Below are positions 10,756 through 19,110 of a DNA stretch of 32,074 nucleotides, one piece after another. Source of the stretch: Ferrovibrio sp. (lineage in GTDB: Bacteria > Pseudomonadota > Alphaproteobacteria > Ferrovibrionales > Ferrovibrionaceae); assembly GCF_029255545.1 (NCBI RefSeq), contig NZ_JANLJJ010000048.1, forward strand, positions 16,213-48,286, given 5' to 3'. The position numbers and the translations under genes were made by a program. How positions within the stretch are numbered: position 1 is the first letter of the stretch; each line of letters begins with the position of its first letter. The notes under the pieces were generated by a model. It was not told the origin of the DNA, did not search any database, and worked only from the letters and a program-made list of their open reading frames with translations.

Positions 10756-11721
10756 ATGCGTGATCCCTACGAGGTGCTGGGGGTGGCGCGCGGCATCAGC
10801 CAGGACGATCTGCGCAAGGCCTATCGCAAGCTGGCCAAGGAACTGCATCCCGACCGCAATCCCGACAACGCCAAGGCGGCCGAGCGGTTCAAGGAAGTCT
10901 CGGCGGCCTACGACATTCTTGGTGACGCGGAAAAGCGCGGCAAATACGACCGCGGCGAGATCGATGCCGCCGGCCAGCCGCGTGCCCGCGGCTTTGGCGG
11001 CGGTTTTCGCGGCGGCCCGGGTGCTGGCGCGCGCGGTGGCGCGCGGGGCCCGTTCGGCGGCGGCGATCACGGTTTCGGCGGTTTCGAGAATGGCGGCGAG
11101 GATATCTTCGACGAGATTTTCGGCCAGATGCGGCGCACCCGTGGCGGTGCCGGCGCGCGGACCAACCGACCGATGCGCGGCGCCGACCGCCATTTCAACC
11201 TCAAGATCGGCTTTCTCGATGCTGCGCGCGGCTGCAAGCGCCGGCTCACCATGCCCGACGGCAAGCAGCTCGATGTCGCCATCCCGGCCGGCCTGGCCGA
11301 TGGCCAGCAGATCCGCCTGCGGCACCAGGGCGATGCCGGCCGCAATGGCGGCGAGGCCGGCGACGCGCTGATCGAGGTGACGGTCGAGCCGCATCCCTTT
11401 TTCATCCGCCAGGGCGAGGATATCCAGCTCGAGCTGCCCGTCACGCTGGACGAGGCCGTTCTGGGCGCCAAGATCGCGGTGCCCACCATCGACGGCATGG
11501 TGGCCGTCGCCGTGCCCAAGGGCGCCAGCTCCGACACCACCCTGAGGCTGAAGGGCCGCGGTTTTCCGCTCAAGGGCGGGGCATCTGACCAGCGCGGCGA
11601 CCAGTATGTGAAGCTGAAGATCGTGCTGCCCGAGAAGCCCAATTCGGCGCTGGAAAAGCTGATCGAGGGCTGGGTGAAGTCGCACAAATACGACGTGCGG
11701 GCCAAATACACCCTCGACTAG
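10756..11721 (+). CDS. DnaJ-class co-chaperone (CbpA-like, no zinc finger)
   Basis: This 321-residue J-domain protein stimulates an Hsp70 ATPase and passes it unfolded clients. The J domain is residues 3-68 with the HPD tripeptide at H31-P32-D33 (KELHPDRNPDN). A Gly/Phe-rich linker spans about 74-135 (FGGGFRGGPGAGARGG and FGGFENGGEDIFDEIFGQ). The C-terminal substrate-binding domains run from ~145 to 305 (GADRHFNLKIGFLDAARGCK, LDVAIPAGLADGQQIRLRHQ, TLDEAVLGAKIAVPTIDG). The four CxxCxGxG zinc repeats of true DnaJ are absent, so this is a type B/CbpA protein rather than the main chaperone. GGGGGG eight bases before the ATG acts as ribosome-binding site. It is probably co-transcribed with the two envelope genes before it, an unusual pairing of exported and cytoplasmic products. 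Confidence 0.92.
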   Translation: MRDPYEVLGVARGISQDDLRKAYRKLAKELHPDRNPDNAKAAERFKEVSAAYDILGDAEKRGKYDRGEIDAAGQPRARGFGGGFRGGPGAGARGGARGPFGGGDHGFGGFENGGEDIFDEIFGQMRRTRGGAGARTNRPMRGADRHFNLKIGFLDAARGCKRRLTMPDGKQLDVAIPAGLADGQQIRLRHQGDAGRNGGEAGDALIEVTVEPHPFFIRQGEDIQLELPVTLDEAVLGAKIAVPTIDGMVAVAVPKGASSDTTLRLKGRGFPLKGGASDQRGDQYVKLKIVLPEKPNSALEKLIEGWVKSHKYDVRAKYTLD

Positions 11722-11727
11722 GCCATT

Positions 11728-11743
11728 TTAACCAAGCATTCAC
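11728..11743 (+). promoter_or_regulatory. CtrA-like binding site upstream of the amidase gene
   Basis: TTAA (11728-11731), seven bases, then TTCAC (11739-11743) matches the CtrA consensus TTAA-N7-TTAAC at eight of nine fixed positions. It lies in the gap after the dnaJ-like gene, about 115 bases upstream of the amidase ATG. CtrA is the cell-cycle response regulator of alphaproteobacteria. One near match is weak evidence by itself. Confidence 0.35.
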
Positions 11744-11789
11744 CATCTCTTGGCAGCCTGAAGACGGACTGTCCTTGCCGGCGAGTCCA

Positions 11790-11808
11790 GCAGACGTCTA
11801 TCGTCTGC
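11790..11808. promoter_or_regulatory. Inverted repeat in the amidase upstream region
   Basis: GCAGACG (11790-11796) and CGTCTGC (11802-11808) form a perfect seven-base inverted repeat around five bases, 50 bases upstream of the amidase ATG at 11858. It could be an operator or a leader hairpin; no regulator is evident. Confidence 0.35.
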
Positions 11809-11857
11809 CCCACAGATGCCGATTCGCGCCAGATTCGATTCGGTCGATGGAAACCGC

Positions 11858-12709
11858 ATGTATACGCGACGCTTGGTGATCTCTTCCCTGCTTGGGCTGC
11901 TCGGCAGCGCCGCCTTGCCGGCGCTGGGGCAGGCGGCGACGCGTAATGGCGCCGTGCCGCTGCCCGGCCGCAAGCCGCCCCAGAAATCACCGGCGGGCGG
12001 GGCGAAGCCGCTGCCGAAGCGGCCGCCGGCCATCGTCGTGCTCGATCCGGGCCATGGCGGCCGCGACCCCGGCGCCATCGGCGTGACCGGCACCGAGGAG
12101 AAGGACGTCACGCTCTCGATCTGCCAGAGCATCCGCCAGATGCTGGCCGGCAACCCCGATATCAAAGTGTTCATGACCCGCGACCGCGACAGCTATATCC
12201 CGCTGCCCAGCCGGGTCGCCTTCGCGCATGAGAAAAACGCCGACCTGTTCATCTCGATCCATGCCGACGCGGCGCCGAACCGCGGCGCGCGTGGCCTGTC
12301 GGCCTACAGCCGCGCCGACAAGGCCTCCGATGATTTCGCGCGCCGCCTGGCCGACCGCGAAAACCAGGTGGATGCCATCTATGGCTTCGATGCCGGCGCC
12401 ACCGACAAGCAGACGGCGGCGATCCTGATCGACCTGGCCCGCCGCCACAGCCATAACGCATCGCTCAGCGCCAAGCGCCGCATCGTCACCGGCGTCGGCC
12501 GCCGCGTGCACCTGCTGGAAAACCCGATGCGGCAGGCCAATTTCGCCGTGCTGCGCTCGCCCGCTATTCCCTCGGTGCTGATTGAGACCGGCTTCCTGTC
12601 CAACCTGCAGGATGAACGGGTGCTGCGCAGCCCGAAAAGCCGCGCCGAACTGGCGCGGTTCCTGGCCGAGCAGATCGGCCCGGTTGCCGCCGACCTGCGC
12701 GAGGCGTGA
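11858..12709 (+). CDS. N-acetylmuramoyl-L-alanine amidase, AmiC type
   Basis: This is an Amidase_3 zinc hydrolase that cuts the bond between N-acetylmuramic acid and L-Ala in peptidoglycan, usually to split daughter cells. From the ATG at 11858 it has 283 residues. The N-terminus MYTRRLVISSLLGLL followed by ALPALGQA looks like an export signal, with paired Arg residues hinting at Tat as in other AmiC proteins. The catalytic domain carries the zinc ligands in VVLDPGHGGRDPG (His), the Glu of EEKDVTL, the His of SIHADA and the general-base Glu of ETGFLSN. There is no AMIN domain. An ATG at 11816 would add 14 residues before the signal and is unlikely. The last 24 bases of the gap before tarD hold only a short dyad. 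Confidence 0.92.
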   Translation: MYTRRLVISSLLGLLGSAALPALGQAATRNGAVPLPGRKPPQKSPAGGAKPLPKRPPAIVVLDPGHGGRDPGAIGVTGTEEKDVTLSICQSIRQMLAGNPDIKVFMTRDRDSYIPLPSRVAFAHEKNADLFISIHADAAPNRGARGLSAYSRADKASDDFARRLADRENQVDAIYGFDAGATDKQTAAILIDLARRHSHNASLSAKRRIVTGVGRRVHLLENPMRQANFAVLRSPAIPSVLIETGFLSNLQDERVLRSPKSRAELARFLAEQIGPVAADLREA

Positions 12710-15279: not shown

Positions 15280-15306
15280 GGCCGCTGTTCTAGCCCCCGT
15301 CTGGGG

Positions 15307-15312
15307 TATAGT
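15307..15312 (+). promoter_or_regulatory. -10-like element for the thioesterase gene
   Basis: TATAGT lies 23 bases before the thioesterase ATG in the 56-base divergent gap with rsmB; a start point near 15319 would leave a short leader containing GGGAGG (15326-15331). The -35 region is poor, so this is tentative. Confidence 0.3.
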
Positions 15313-15335
15313 CGAGGCATTGACCGGGAGGCAGC

Positions 15336-15761
15336 ATGACCCAGCTTACCCCAGCCGACGCCCAGGCCATCCTGGCCGAGAATTTCCCGCCCTGGATCCG
15401 CGACCTGCATCTGCGTTTCGAGACGATCGAGCCCGGCCGCGTCGTGCTGCGCCTGCCCAACAACCCGAAACTGGCCCGGGTCGGCGGCATTCTCTGTGGC
15501 CAGGCCATCATGGCGGTGGCCGATACCGCCATGGTGTTCGCTGTCACCAGCGCGCTGAAGCGCTTCGTCAACATGGCGACCGTAACCCAGACCACCAGTT
15601 TCTTCCGCGCCGTCGCCGACATGGACGTGCTGTGCGACACCCGGGTGATCCGGCTGGGCCAGAGCCTGGCTTTTGGCGAGGCCGTGTTCCGCAGCGTCGA
15701 GCGCGAGGAACCCTTCGCTCAGGCCAGCCTGACCTATGCGCTGCTGACCGGCGCGCGCTGA
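15336..15761 (+). CDS. PaaI-type hotdog-fold thioesterase
   Basis: This 141-residue protein has the size and pattern of a PaaI/YbgC-like hotdog thioesterase, which hydrolyses acyl-CoA esters in the cytoplasm, generally as a tetramer. The central helix segment GGILCGQAIMAVADTAM corresponds to the HGG...DxA motif of PaaI, with Gly-Gly kept, the His replaced by Val, and the Asp of VADTA as probable catalytic acid. The strand NMATVTQTTSFFRAV and the closing AQASLTYALL are as expected. The ribosome-binding site GGGAGG is four bases from the ATG. It is divergent from rsmB and ends three bases before the membrane-protein stop on the other strand. The acyl-CoA substrate cannot be told. Confidence 0.83.
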   Translation: MTQLTPADAQAILAENFPPWIRDLHLRFETIEPGRVVLRLPNNPKLARVGGILCGQAIMAVADTAMVFAVTSALKRFVNMATVTQTTSFFRAVADMDVLCDTRVIRLGQSLAFGEAVFRSVEREEPFAQASLTYALLTGAR

Positions 15762-15764
15762 GGG

Positions 15765-16811
15765 TTATTTCTGTGCTGGCGCGGGTGTCGGATTTTCCGG
15801 TTTCCGGCCGGCGGCGCGCAGGCCCACGATCTTGCCCAGCGTGTCGAACCAGAACTGCGCGCCCAGAGAGATTGCCAGCGCCGTCATGATCCAGCCGATC
15901 CACGCGGCGGCGGTGACGGGTGCGTGTTCCGGCTTTCCCGCCGGGGAATACAGGACGCGTTCCGACGGCTGGGCGCCCTGGCATGGCATTCCCGGCAGTT
16001 TGCGCATCCAGCCCGGCGCCGGCAGGCTGGTCAAGCCGAATGCGCCCATCGCGATCGAGCAGAACCCGGTGCTGCTCCAGCCCATCGGCAGCTGCATGGC
16101 CTGCACGCTTTTCAGCAGGGCGGCGAAATCCTGCTCCGTGGATTGTTGTGGCGGCTGCTTCGGGCCGTCCGGGCTGGCTTTGACATAGGCGGTGGCCTGG
16201 GCGGTGATTTCGGCGGCACGGGTGGCGTTGCCGCCGTTCCACAGCGCGCGCGCGATCTGCAGGGTATCGACATTGAGCATGACGGCCAGCGCCAGACCAT
16301 AGAAGAACAGCCAGCGCTGGGCGCTGCGTTTGTAGATGCCGCTCTGCCGGTCGGTGCCCGCCCTGTACCAGTCGAGCAGCCTGGCGCGGAACGTGGCCTC
16401 GTCGCCCTTCGCGTCGGCCCAGAGCGCGGCCAGCGCCGGCTGCATGTTGCCGGAGACAAAAGCGCCGGCACGCCGCAGGATGTCGGTCAGCGCATCGGCG
16501 AAAATCTCCGGCTCTATATAGGAGGGCTGCCGCGCGCGCAGGAACGGCAGCAGCCAGGCCAGCCAGCGCAGGCTGGGATAATCCAGGCCTGGCCGGATCA
16601 GGCCGGCAATCAGCGGGTGGGCGTAAAGCCGGCCGGCCAGTCCGGCCAGCCGTGGATCGCCAAGCAGATGGCCAATCGTCTGGCGCAGGCCCTGGCCACG
16701 GCTGTTCCAGGCGCCGGCGATAATCTCTTCGAGCACCGATGCCATCATGCTGAGCAGCAGATAGAGGAAGACCAGACTGACGACGACATTCAGGACAATG
16801 CCAATATCCAT
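15765..16811 (-). CDS. Three-helix membrane protein of unknown function, operon partner of patatin-like protein
   Basis: I cannot assign a function. The 348-residue product begins MDIGIVLNVVVSLVFLYLLL. It has three likely membrane helices, at about 4-26, 168-190 and 302-324, with soluble stretches of about 140 and 110 residues between them. Motifs that I recall from a widespread unnamed family of such proteins are LLDWYRAGTDRQSGIYKRSA, NVDTLQIARALW and SLGAQFWFDTLGKIVGLR. Residues 270-296 contain one Cys and a Pro-rich loop; the tail is polar. The start is the ATG 10 bases after the patatin stop, so the two are almost certainly co-translated. The frame is open upstream for another 127 codons, but that part lies antisense to nothing useful and inside the patatin gene. 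A membrane receptor or anchor for the lipase is possible. Confidence 0.8.
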   Translation of the reverse strand: MDIGIVLNVVVSLVFLYLLLSMMASVLEEIIAGAWNSRGQGLRQTIGHLLGDPRLAGLAGRLYAHPLIAGLIRPGLDYPSLRWLAWLLPFLRARQPSYIEPEIFADALTDILRRAGAFVSGNMQPALAALWADAKGDEATFRARLLDWYRAGTDRQSGIYKRSAQRWLFFYGLALAVMLNVDTLQIARALWNGGNATRAAEITAQATAYVKASPDGPKQPPQQSTEQDFAALLKSVQAMQLPMGWSSTGFCSIAMGAFGLTSLPAPGWMRKLPGMPCQGAQPSERVLYSPAGKPEHAPVTAAAWIGWIMTALAISLGAQFWFDTLGKIVGLRAAGRKPENPTPAPAQK

Positions 16812-16821
16812 GATCGTATCC

Positions 16822-18936
16822 TCAGTCGATGACAGGTTTGCCCGAGACGATCCATTCGTCGACCTGCTTGATGCCGGGCAACTGGCTGAACCAGCCCGGC
16901 TTGCGCTCCTGCAGGGTATAGGTGCGGTCGCCATTTGCCGTCTTCGGGCCGTGGGCGAGCAGCGTGGCAAGGGCCGGATCGTTGAGGGCGCGATCGATCT
17001 GCGTCGCGGTGCGGCCGAATTGCCGCGCGATGCCGCCGACCGTGCGGTAATCATAGGCGGGATTGGCAAGGCCGGCGGCAACGAGCCGGATATCCTCGAC
17101 CTGGCCCGCCGTCGGCCCGGCAATCTGGTCGCGGCGATACAGGTCCTGCAGCACGGCCCAGCGTATGAAATCCTCGACCTTGCTTTTGCCATAGGCCCAC
17201 CAGACCAGGCCGGCGATCCAGCGTCCGAGGCGTGACGCGAAACCCGATTTCAGCCGGCCGAACACCGCATCGGCGCGCCCCTTGGCCCGCCGCACCATGG
17301 TATCGACATCCGCCCGCGTAACGCGGGGCCAGACCGGCGCCGTTGGCTGGGCGACATGCGGCCGCGACGGGTCCGCGGGGTCTGGCGGCACCAGCGGGAT
17401 GATCTGGTAGAAGGGCCCTGGCAGGCCGCCGCTCGGCGCGGTCTGGAAGGCCGGTAGTTTTGCGGCCGGGCCATGGGGCGGGCCATAGCCGGCGGCGATC
17501 ACCGTGTTGGTGGCTGGCAGGGCAAAGCAGTCCTTGAGAAAGAGATAGCAGTTCAATCGGCCGAGCTGGTAATCGTGGGCGCGGAATTCCTTGGCCAGGA
17601 AGCCGCCGAAACCGCCGAGCAGGCCGCAGGCAATGGCATGCGGCTCCAGCGGCGCCGGAGCCGGCGCGCTGCGGCGGCGCGGCGCGATCAGGAAGCGGCT
17701 GAACACGGATTCATCCAGGGCGTCGGCTATGTCATCGGGCTTGAACCGCGCCTGATCCTTCAGGGTCGGGAACAGGCTCTTGATCACGGTCATCAGGCTG
17801 GCATCCAGCTTTCCCGTCATGTCGTAGCTGGGCGGTTCGGGGAACGGATCGATCATCAGCACGGCACGCTCGGCTTTTTCGGCTTCACGCGGATTGTTCT
17901 GCGGTGGCTGTTCCATCAGCGCCCAGCGCGCCAGCTCGAAGGGCTCGTTGTCGATCACGCCGCCATCGACGGTGACGTAGTCGGCGCGGTTCCCCACCAG
18001 CGACGGCGGAAAACTCGGCATCAGGTCGAATTTCGGCGCCTGGTTGCCGCCGGCCTGATAGCTGCGCCGGATTGGCCATTGCCTGGCCTTGTAATCCTCG
18101 ATGGCGACGTTGCGGATCACGCGCGCCGACAGGCCGGCCGGAAAGGCGGATGTGCCCAGCGCCGCCTCGGCATAATCGAACCAGGGACCTTCCACGGCAT
18201 TCAGGCCGGACAGGGTGGCCACGTCGATCGATCTGGCGGGGTCCGGAGCGAGCCAGGGGCTGGAGAAATTCATGTGGCTGCCGATGCCGCTGACGACGTA
18301 ATGCACCCGGTCGGCGTGGCAGAGCATGTCATAGCCCTCGTCCATCGCACCGGTATTGAGGAAGCGGATCGCATAAGGCACGCCACGCAGGTTGGTGTGG
18401 GTCAGCAGCAGGTCGACATGCGCGGACAGATAGGGGCGCGGCGGATGCAGCGCCGTAAAGCCGAGCAGCGAGGCGTCGACGATGCGGCGCAGGATCGTGG
18501 TGTCGAGCAGGGCGGAGACCGCGTCGTCCGGGCCCAGGGCCTGGATGTCTTCGTCGCCGAGCAGATCGCTGCCGCCGGCGGGATCGACGAAGCAGGGCAG
18601 CTCAACCCAGGCCTGGTATAGCCGCGGCAGCCGGGTGGTGACCGTGCCGACCATCGGAATGCTGTGGTGCACGACGCGGTCTTCCGCGTCGGCCAGCGCC
18701 AGAAGGCCCAGCGCGCCGGTGATGCCGCCGGCCGAAGCCCCCGACATCACGGGGATCACCACGTCATGGCTCGGCACATCCCAGCCGGCTTCCGGGATGC
18801 CGGCGGCGCGCAGCGCCTTCTTGCGCTGTTCCCAGGCTTCGAGGGCCTCCATCAGGAAATCGAAAACGCCGCCGGTATAGGCGCCGGCCGAAATCGCGCC
18901 GGCCATGGTCAGGCCAACGTAGAATCTCCCGCTCAT
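16822..18936 (-). CDS. Large patatin-like phospholipase
   Basis: This 704-residue protein has an N-terminal patatin (acyl hydrolase) fold with a Ser-Asp dyad. The oxyanion glycines are in TMAGAISAGAYTGGVFDFLM (10-29), the nucleophile is S68 in SGASAGG, and the partner is D324 in TVDGGVIDNEPFE. Such enzymes cut acyl chains from membrane lipids. The part after ~400 is not a known catalytic domain; it includes AHDYQLGRLNCYLFLKDCFA, a Pro-rich linker (PLVPPDPADPSRPHVAQPTA) and an Arg/Lys-rich segment with one weak hydrophobic stretch (WIAGLVWWAYG). The ATG at 18936 has GGGGGG eight bases upstream. A frame open for 577 more codons upstream is antisense to rpe and the next gene and is rejected. It heads an operon with the membrane protein. 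Confidence 0.9.
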   Translation of the reverse strand: MSGRFYVGLTMAGAISAGAYTGGVFDFLMEALEAWEQRKKALRAAGIPEAGWDVPSHDVVIPVMSGASAGGITGALGLLALADAEDRVVHHSIPMVGTVTTRLPRLYQAWVELPCFVDPAGGSDLLGDEDIQALGPDDAVSALLDTTILRRIVDASLLGFTALHPPRPYLSAHVDLLLTHTNLRGVPYAIRFLNTGAMDEGYDMLCHADRVHYVVSGIGSHMNFSSPWLAPDPARSIDVATLSGLNAVEGPWFDYAEAALGTSAFPAGLSARVIRNVAIEDYKARQWPIRRSYQAGGNQAPKFDLMPSFPPSLVGNRADYVTVDGGVIDNEPFELARWALMEQPPQNNPREAEKAERAVLMIDPFPEPPSYDMTGKLDASLMTVIKSLFPTLKDQARFKPDDIADALDESVFSRFLIAPRRRSAPAPAPLEPHAIACGLLGGFGGFLAKEFRAHDYQLGRLNCYLFLKDCFALPATNTVIAAGYGPPHGPAAKLPAFQTAPSGGLPGPFYQIIPLVPPDPADPSRPHVAQPTAPVWPRVTRADVDTMVRRAKGRADAVFGRLKSGFASRLGRWIAGLVWWAYGKSKVEDFIRWAVLQDLYRRDQIAGPTAGQVEDIRLVAAGLANPAYDYRTVGGIARQFGRTATQIDRALNDPALATLLAHGPKTANGDRTYTLQERKPGWFSQLPGIKQVDEWIVSGKPVID

Positions 18937-19005
18937 CGATTTTTCCCCCCCAGCTGCCCCAGTTGATTCTCTCCACAGCTTATGGGGGCAAGTAAAGCGG
19001 AATAA

Positions 19006-19021
19006 CTTCTTAAAGTAGAAG
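19006..19021. promoter_or_regulatory. Dyad in the patatin-rpe divergent gap
   Basis: CTTCT (19006-19010) and AGAAG (19017-19021) flank six bases in the AT-richest part of the 174-base gap between the divergent patatin and rpe genes. It is a possible operator serving either gene; arms are short. Confidence 0.25.
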
Positions 19022-19110
19022 AACCGGACAGGTCCACGACCTGCTTTGCATGATCCGTCCGGCCGGATAAGCCCTTGGCGAGGCTGGGCGGAAGCTGCTA
19101 AGCCTGCCCC

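Follow-up and report, generated by a model that had tools for sequence, protein, structure and literature searches.

CapV-like patatin effectors are phospholipases that act on the cell's own membrane, and in holin-endolysin and type 10 secretion arrangements a membrane protein is encoded next to wall hydrolases that carry no signal peptide. Kaur et al. (2020; PMC7159879) described a design that is closer, System 4, in which a membrane component, EACC1, is encoded with a variable-effector gene and a role in conflict is proposed; EACC1 spans the membrane with a single helix flanked by alpha+beta extensions, and is usually partnered by a caspase. System 3 of the same source is described there as having trypsin-like peptidases with a NucA nuclease as its core. 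Here, a comparable gene pair was examined in a 32,074-nucleotide stretch of Ferrovibrio sp. (contig NZ_JANLJJ010000048.1, positions 16,213 to 48,286; hereafter the window). An earlier note on this DNA had described a large patatin-like phospholipase (P0001) and, 10 bases on, a membrane protein (P0002, here termed M, as are its relatives), and their coordinates were confirmed. Comparison with other loci revealed that the recurring unit is M with some degrading enzyme, rather than M with this patatin, since M adjoins other enzymes, or none that is recognised, far more often than it adjoins this one.

Named genomes from several phyla contain at least 558 stretches with a relative of M. The neighbourhoods analysed comprise 105 M loci, referred to by L-numbers, made up of the 80 best-scoring of those stretches, 7 plasmid loci and 18 loci from a genome sample; the set is non-random, was not deduplicated and excludes the window, and the loci reach at most ~10 kb from M. 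Their 1,735 genes were called with a simple open reading frame caller, which over-extended gene starts in L019, L100, L101 and L149. Genes are termed directly joined when they lie on the same strand about 31 bases or less apart. A bulk Pfam scan covered 70 of the 118 same-strand neighbours and listed 25 of 113 families without per-member names, further neighbours being scanned separately; 'no recognised enzyme' accordingly refers to the part of the neighbours that was scanned.

Of the 105 loci, 34 have a recognised degrading enzyme fused to M or directly joined to it. The joined enzymes include eight amidases, seven patatins (that of L050 falls below the Pfam cut-off and is in two pieces) and six subtilases, together with two free trypsin-like peptidases (L095 below the Pfam cut-off) and two fused ones, two class-3 lipases, one of them fused, and two M15 peptidases. 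A Tle1-like phospholipase, a muramidase, a GH46 enzyme, a sedolisin and a metallophosphoesterase occur once each, the metallophosphoesterase of L071 being called from the bulk count and its sequence, and the subtilase of L061 from a profile built on its own cluster. Within the genome sample, 5 of the 18 loci have a joined or fused enzyme, namely an M15 peptidase (L149), a free (L157) and a fused (L155) class-3 lipase, a patatin (L159) and a sedolisin (L163). Looser neighbours, which were not counted, are a papain at 110-116 bases (L033, L040), a vanadium haloperoxidase at 35-63 bases (L023, L029) and a phage-lysozyme gene upstream of M in L101. When a profile of the amidase domain was run over the loci, all eight members detected (four of them profile seeds) proved to be joined to M. 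Similarly, an SH3-like N-terminal domain was found nine times (five being profile seeds), in each case in an enzyme directly joined to M, and its carriers belong to three unrelated catalytic folds (six subtilases, two trypsin-like peptidases and one GH46 enzyme). As a separate observation, seven loci (L044, L057, L061, L068, L077, L083 and L094) have a related gene of 308-899 residues after M and a protease, or after a fused M; the starts of its products in L068 and L077 look exported, and those of L061 and L068 show no Pfam family above cut-off. In a further locus (L167, 5904-8993), the genes on either side of M encode a TIR-domain protein and a DUF4062 protein, a setting reminiscent of defence.

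In some relatives the enzyme is part of the same protein as M. In L032 and L077, M is extended by a domain that by eye has the His and GDSG motifs of trypsin-like enzymes; Pfam does not call this domain, yet it shows homology (E 5e-24 and 7e-15, respectively) to the free partner of L068, which Pfam calls Trypsin_2. In L155, M runs into a Lipase_3 domain (E 1e-23) homologous to the free lipase that adjoins M in L157. The partner enzymes tested usually appear to lack a signal-like start, as judged by hydropathy only (best 12-mer in the first 45 residues): among 29 partner or nearby enzymes the maximum was 1.78, against 2.46-2.78 for three exported neighbours, and five further enzymes reached at most 1.66.

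The C-terminus of M beyond the LGAPFWFD motif varies with the type of partner. A tail of the form DGC...LPxAxGGV is present in 8/8 amidase-paired M proteins and in 1/98 others; in the sole exception, L062, an amidase-like start lies directly downstream in a broken gene (by eye). That segment (11131-12600) has, after the amidase-like start, broken frames with hydrolase-like stretches, and by eye resembles a decayed or exchanged partner. Likewise, VG or KG ends are found in 9/9 M proteins paired with SH3-type enzymes versus 2/97 others (L064 and L169). The regular expressions were written after the tails had been viewed, and the p-values of 3e-11 (amidase) and 2e-11 (VG/KG) are therefore descriptive and uncorrected for relatedness. 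The variant GAQFWFD is confined among 106 rows to the window, L019 and L031, whose three M proteins are those that accompany the window's type of patatin; the two M15-paired proteins, although the tree does not make them sisters, have similar tails (W[AK]AG..., by eye). In a quickly built tree (106 rows, 43 of 103 inner branches open), the 18 partner labels require 18 changes, compared with a mean of 29.1 after shuffling, and none of 200 shuffles gave so low a count. Partners nevertheless differ between sister rows with starred support (L068 trypsin and L050 patatin; L149 M15 and L107 muramidase). The amidase-paired proteins form one tree group and account for one change, whereas the M of the window is loosely placed, and a single origin of its patatin type may be the case.

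M itself belongs to a large, widespread and so far unnamed membrane-protein family. Relatives are present in 8/289 genomes of the class and 12/398 of the phylum, the window's own genome being counted in both, and GAPFWFD is conserved in 99 of the 106 family rows, the window having GAQFWFD. No family was assigned to P0002 by Pfam, NCBIfam or PADLOC. When 68 relatives were searched at E up to 0.01, Pfam returned seven families with 1-2 members each (best 5.7e-5), NCBIfam four families with one member each (best 0.0014) and PADLOC MTase_II (0.0016) and ZorA (0.002), again with one member each; these scattered matches, which have nothing in common, are read as chance. In the open-access literature, preprints excluded, no title or abstract describing the family was found, the family having no name to search by. 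The three helices and the motifs attributed to M by the earlier note (SGIYKRSAQ, for example) were borne out: the motifs are present, and the best 19-residue hydropathy values are 2.57 (residues 3-21), 1.58 (168-186) and 1.65 (299-317), the family medians being 2.57, 2.11 and 1.65, a fixed threshold of 1.6 detecting only the first and third in P0002. An AlphaFold model of M is all-helical and of good confidence (predicted local distance difference test, pLDDT, 86.7; predicted template modelling score 0.79), and gave no clear match to solved structures, the best Foldseek E being 0.48 and the best VIA-align Z 4.4 with a root-mean-square deviation of 4.6 over 91 residues. Lys and Arg per 100 residues amount to 0 ahead of helix 1 and 18.8 behind it, to 18.8 ahead of helix 2 and 13.9 immediately behind it (10.6 over the whole of loop 2), and to 20.9 behind helix 3. 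Since positive charge follows helix 1, precedes helix 2 and follows helix 3, the tail is placed inside, and the charges suggest an N-out, C-in topology that is not clear-cut.

Because one constant membrane protein occurs with exchangeable enzymes, partner-linked tails and fusions, M can be proposed to act as an inner-membrane dock that tethers or gates exchangeable hydrolases whose targets are the envelope or proteins, with controlled self-damage, lysis or conflict as the probable use; the chances of this being correct are judged about even. M would hold one hydrolase, usually free of a signal peptide, on the cytoplasmic face, contact being made through its C-terminal part, and would either tether the enzyme to the membrane or pass it through on a trigger. 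In the window, the patatin-type phospholipase, if catalytically active, would hydrolyse the cell's own membrane lipids, while the partners in relatives are of kinds that would attack peptidoglycan or protein. The outcome could be suicide against an invader, or release of the enzyme onto neighbours. Phospholipases and proteases would have to act no further than the inner face; wall hydrolases would additionally need M to pass them or to break the membrane, and for this reason docking with tethering and docking with gating are kept side by side. A wider proposal, offered tentatively and judged less likely than not, is that the M pairs constitute a kind of polymorphic system that has yet to be named, in which a three-helix chassis with a partner-coded C-terminal end would carry plugged-in hydrolases, in places via the SH3-like adaptor, for use against the cell's own or a neighbour's envelope.

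A number of observations sit poorly with a docking role. The cytoplasm offers no substrate to the wall-cutting partners. The segment after helix 2, predicted to be outside, is itself fairly positive (13.9 Lys and Arg per 100 residues), and in L108 a PG_binding_1 domain is carried on the M tail predicted to be inside, which fits the C-in topology badly. In L032, the fused M is immediately followed by a GDSL lipase that does have a hydrophobic start (2.84). In part, the VG/KG ends fall on what may be the ribosome site of the following gene. The amidase tail may have a single origin, the amidase-paired M proteins forming one tree group, and a single deletion could take away both the tail and the amidase. 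Tails of patatin-paired M proteins are short and without a long motif, so that tail docking in the window's pair remains conjecture. No recognised enzyme is directly joined to M in 71 of the 105 loci, and some M genes sit among housekeeping genes (L153, L165); M may consequently have a role of its own. Nor are all the enzyme types restricted to M: six subtilase domains are joined to M and four lie elsewhere in the loci, the corresponding figures being one and two for small patatins, one and two for Tle1-like enzymes and one and one for GH46-like enzymes, with one trypsin-like enzyme elsewhere (L104). Finally, three of the six patatins with the window's type of C-terminal extension have no adjacent M (L020, L030 and L160).

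Several other explanations of the pairing were weighed. The amidase, muramidase, M15 and PG_binding partners, which have no cytoplasmic target and, where tested, no hydrophobic start, would be accommodated if M, presumably the membrane protein of the two-gene units, were an export gate or holin-like channel that takes signal-less hydrolases to the periplasm or outside, for killing or feeding and not for suicide. Trypsin-like and lipase domains fused to M could not leave through it, though, and M is rare in phage data, so such a gate appears unlikely. An annotated phage collection gave no match with one M relative as query (the patatin was not used as a query there), and viral contigs gave none with P0002 and one M relative with the family alignment; this near-absence also disfavours a phage origin or a phage holin. 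Overlapping gene ends, and tails that go with the partner, would fit a toxin with its restraint, M being an antidote that binds a toxic enzyme at the membrane and stops it from acting before the need arises. Against this, M occurs without a recognised enzyme and this kind of patatin occurs without M, and a single antidote family serving unrelated folds would be unusual; the idea is accordingly regarded as quite doubtful.

An ordinary metabolic operon for lipid or envelope turnover, with the neighbourhoods reflecting a general enrichment of hydrolases, would account for the oxidoreductase genes beside M-less patatins and for the enzyme types that lie near M unjoined. It is hard to square with the amidases and SH3-type enzymes of the loci, all of which are directly joined to M, or with the existence of fusions, and is considered improbable. 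The possibility that the enzymes are cargo of a type VI secretion system (T6SS) or an extracellular contractile injection system, with M as the immunity protein, is suggested by the match of the L081 partner to a Tle1-like model and by the list of partner enzymes, which resembles that of T6SS effectors. Of 19 M-bearing genomes, 4 gave TssC and 2 a contractile sheath above cut-off; neither was found in the window's genome, for which the idea is largely refuted within the completeness of that draft (97.6%). Since TssC was not found in 15 of the 19, the window's included, carriage by such a system is disfavoured and seems very improbable indeed. A dock at the inner membrane is the preferred reading of M.

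With regard to the patatin of the window, its match to Pfam Patatin (26.1 bits, E 1.2e-5) lies just below the cut-off of 27.7, and that to NCBIfam TIGR03607 (53.8 bits, best stretch 51-394) well below the cut-off of 262.45. By sequence, the protein is a divergent relative of the family with the catalytic dyad retained: the Ser68-Asp324 pair named in the earlier note corresponds to GASAG and DGG motifs that are invariant in an alignment of eight patatins, the seven homologues being 27-41% identical to P0001, and invariant columns extend to about residue 560. The view that its C-terminus holds no recognised domain was nearly right, save for a sub-threshold Pfam hint of DUF3376 at 435-462. The last 100 residues recur in 5 of 13 other patatins scanned (L019, L020, L030, L031 and L160) and were not found in the other eight (L026, L027, L028, L043, L058, L070, L161 and L168). 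In L160 (6555-8633), a patatin with the window's type of extension has no adjacent M, so the extension is not tied to M. A winged-helix interpretation of these residues, prompted by a helix-turn-helix-wing-like pattern seen by eye, was set aside, being unsupported by Pfam or PDB profiles. A structure model of the patatin, from an alignment of four sequences, was unusable (pLDDT 34.5); a PDB sequence-profile search with patatin and M returned nothing below E 0.1, and no PADLOC model matched P0001 or P0002 at E up to 1.

The pair of window-type patatin and M recurs on a plasmid of Rhizobium sp. NXC14 (L019) and in a genome contig of Rhizobium sp. BK316 (L031), and a second patatin type, without the C-terminal extension, adjoins M in L043, L058 and L070. 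Nine plasmid records hold the large patatin, five of them from Sinorhizobium with 37.1-37.5% identity. In samples that were not chosen by M, the large patatin has an adjacent M in one of five distinct kinds of plasmid record (NXC14 only; six of the nine records were opened) and in one of four genomes (its own, and not G034, G473 or G501), one genome-sample patatin count having taken only matches with E up to 1e-30. The earlier note had itself held that the pairing would fail if the two genes occurred apart in most genomes, and apart is how they mostly occur. Its suggestion of a lipase tied to a membrane sensor survives in part: a lipase is tied to a membrane protein, and not by mere coincidence, as seen from the recurrence in Rhizobium and from the lipase fused to an M relative, whereas the sensor role was not upheld.

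Some further patatin loci were recorded in passing. An M-less family patatin of S. fredii NGR234 (L020, 5977-8058) lies near genes for a catalase and a di-heme cytochrome c peroxidase, and one of Calothrix (L026, 5914-7665) near peroxidase-family and GMC oxidoreductase genes; the passing idea that such clusters are oxylipin pathways was dropped, no paper on them having been found among the sources covered by the literature search. In L043 (8923-9996) and L070 (8945-9979) a gene for a PG_binding_1 protein precedes M and the patatin, giving a three-gene unit. In L050 (8952-9975) a patatin with DGGG and GTSTGG motifs, CapV-like by eye, occupies two overlapping frames directly before M.

The features of the window's locus are collected in Table 1.

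Table 1. Positions in the window of the patatin and M genes, their principal elements and the surrounding extra DNA
Feature	Coordinates	Strand	Basis or remark
Large patatin-like phospholipase, 704 residues (P0001)	16822..18936	-	Open reading frame and translation
Codon of predicted catalytic Ser68 (GASAG)	18733..18735	-	Invariant across 8 aligned sequences
Codon of predicted catalytic Asp324 (DGG)	17965..17967	-	Invariant across 8 aligned sequences
Patatin residues 605-704, C-terminal extension in a family subset	16825..17124	-	Scan of other patatins
Intergenic gap of 10 bases, patatin stop to M start	16812..16821	-	GAGG (ribosome-site-like) overlaps patatin stop
M, three-helix membrane protein, 348 residues (P0002)	15765..16811	-	Open reading frame and translation
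M helix 1, about residues 3-28; charge puts the N-terminus outside	16728..16805	-	Hydropathy
M helix 2, about residues 164-186	16254..16322	-	Hydropathy; long helix 138-178 in model
M helix 3, about residues 299-325, contains LGAQFWFD	15837..15917	-	Hydropathy, alignment
M C-terminal tail, residues 326-348, predicted cytoplasmic	15768..15836	-	Site of partner-specific tails or enzyme fusions in relatives
Extra stretch: thioesterase, M and patatin	15306..19095	.	Absent from rsmB-rpe junction in four sister genomes
Thioesterase-like gene within extra stretch	15336..15761	+	Open reading frame

The genomic setting was examined by comparison of flanks within the genus. The rpe gene was matched in 9 of 10 genus genomes, the window's own included, and rsmB directly adjoins it in 4 of the 8 others having rpe; in the remaining 4, the 1.5 kb examined next to rpe showed no rsmB. 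Relative to this junction the window carries about 3.8 kb of extra DNA. The earlier note had placed the pair between rsmB with a thioesterase and rpe, as neighbours in related genomes, and had considered it inserted. The adjacency of rsmB and rpe holds in those four sister genomes, from whose junctions the extra stretch is missing; the thioesterase is not there either, and was therefore counted as part of the extra stretch, its relatives (62-67% identical) being located elsewhere in three sister genomes. A search at E up to 0.001 through nine further genomes of the genus and eight more of the family gave no match to the patatin. The base composition of the extra stretch is similar to that of its surroundings, and composition consequently gives no pointer to a recent foreign origin.

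If M is indeed a dock of this kind, a single rule, whereby the type of tail predicts the type of enzyme, would help to explain hundreds of unassigned membrane genes in several phyla, and would provide a handle on unassigned lipases, amidases and proteases that lack signal peptides; a membrane-docked, enzyme-swapping design would then join the known devices of bacterial conflict and lysis. Of those devices, the CapV-like effectors share with the locus a patatin phospholipase, and the patatin-like protein of L050 resembles them beside an M, whereas the patatin of the window is larger and of another type. TIGR03607 proteins likewise have a patatin domain within a long protein, from which the window's differs in scoring far below the cut-off. 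Holin-endolysin and type 10 arrangements resemble M where it adjoins signal-less wall hydrolases, and differ in that M also has lipase and protease partners and enzyme fusions, and is distributed in bacteria rather than phages. With System 3 (PMC7159879), the M loci share wall-cutting effectors as well as peptidases of the trypsin-like and subtilase kinds, of which some are fused to membrane segments; they differ as to the NucA core, a DNA/RNA nuclease gene having been noted near L021, with no search for nucleases at other loci. The nearest described design found is System 4 (PMC7159879), which likewise consists of two genes, is membrane-associated and combines one constant component with many exchangeable effector domains. 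M differs from EACC1, as described there, in having three helices and an all-helical model rather than a single helix with alpha+beta flanks, and the window's patatin yields only Patatin and DUF3376 in Pfam, with no N-terminal caspase or cyclase; for the other M loci, the check for caspase and cyclase domains extends to the 25 of 113 Pfam families listed in the bulk scan. The pair of the window thus lacks both features that define System 4 in that description, and may work alike without belonging to it.

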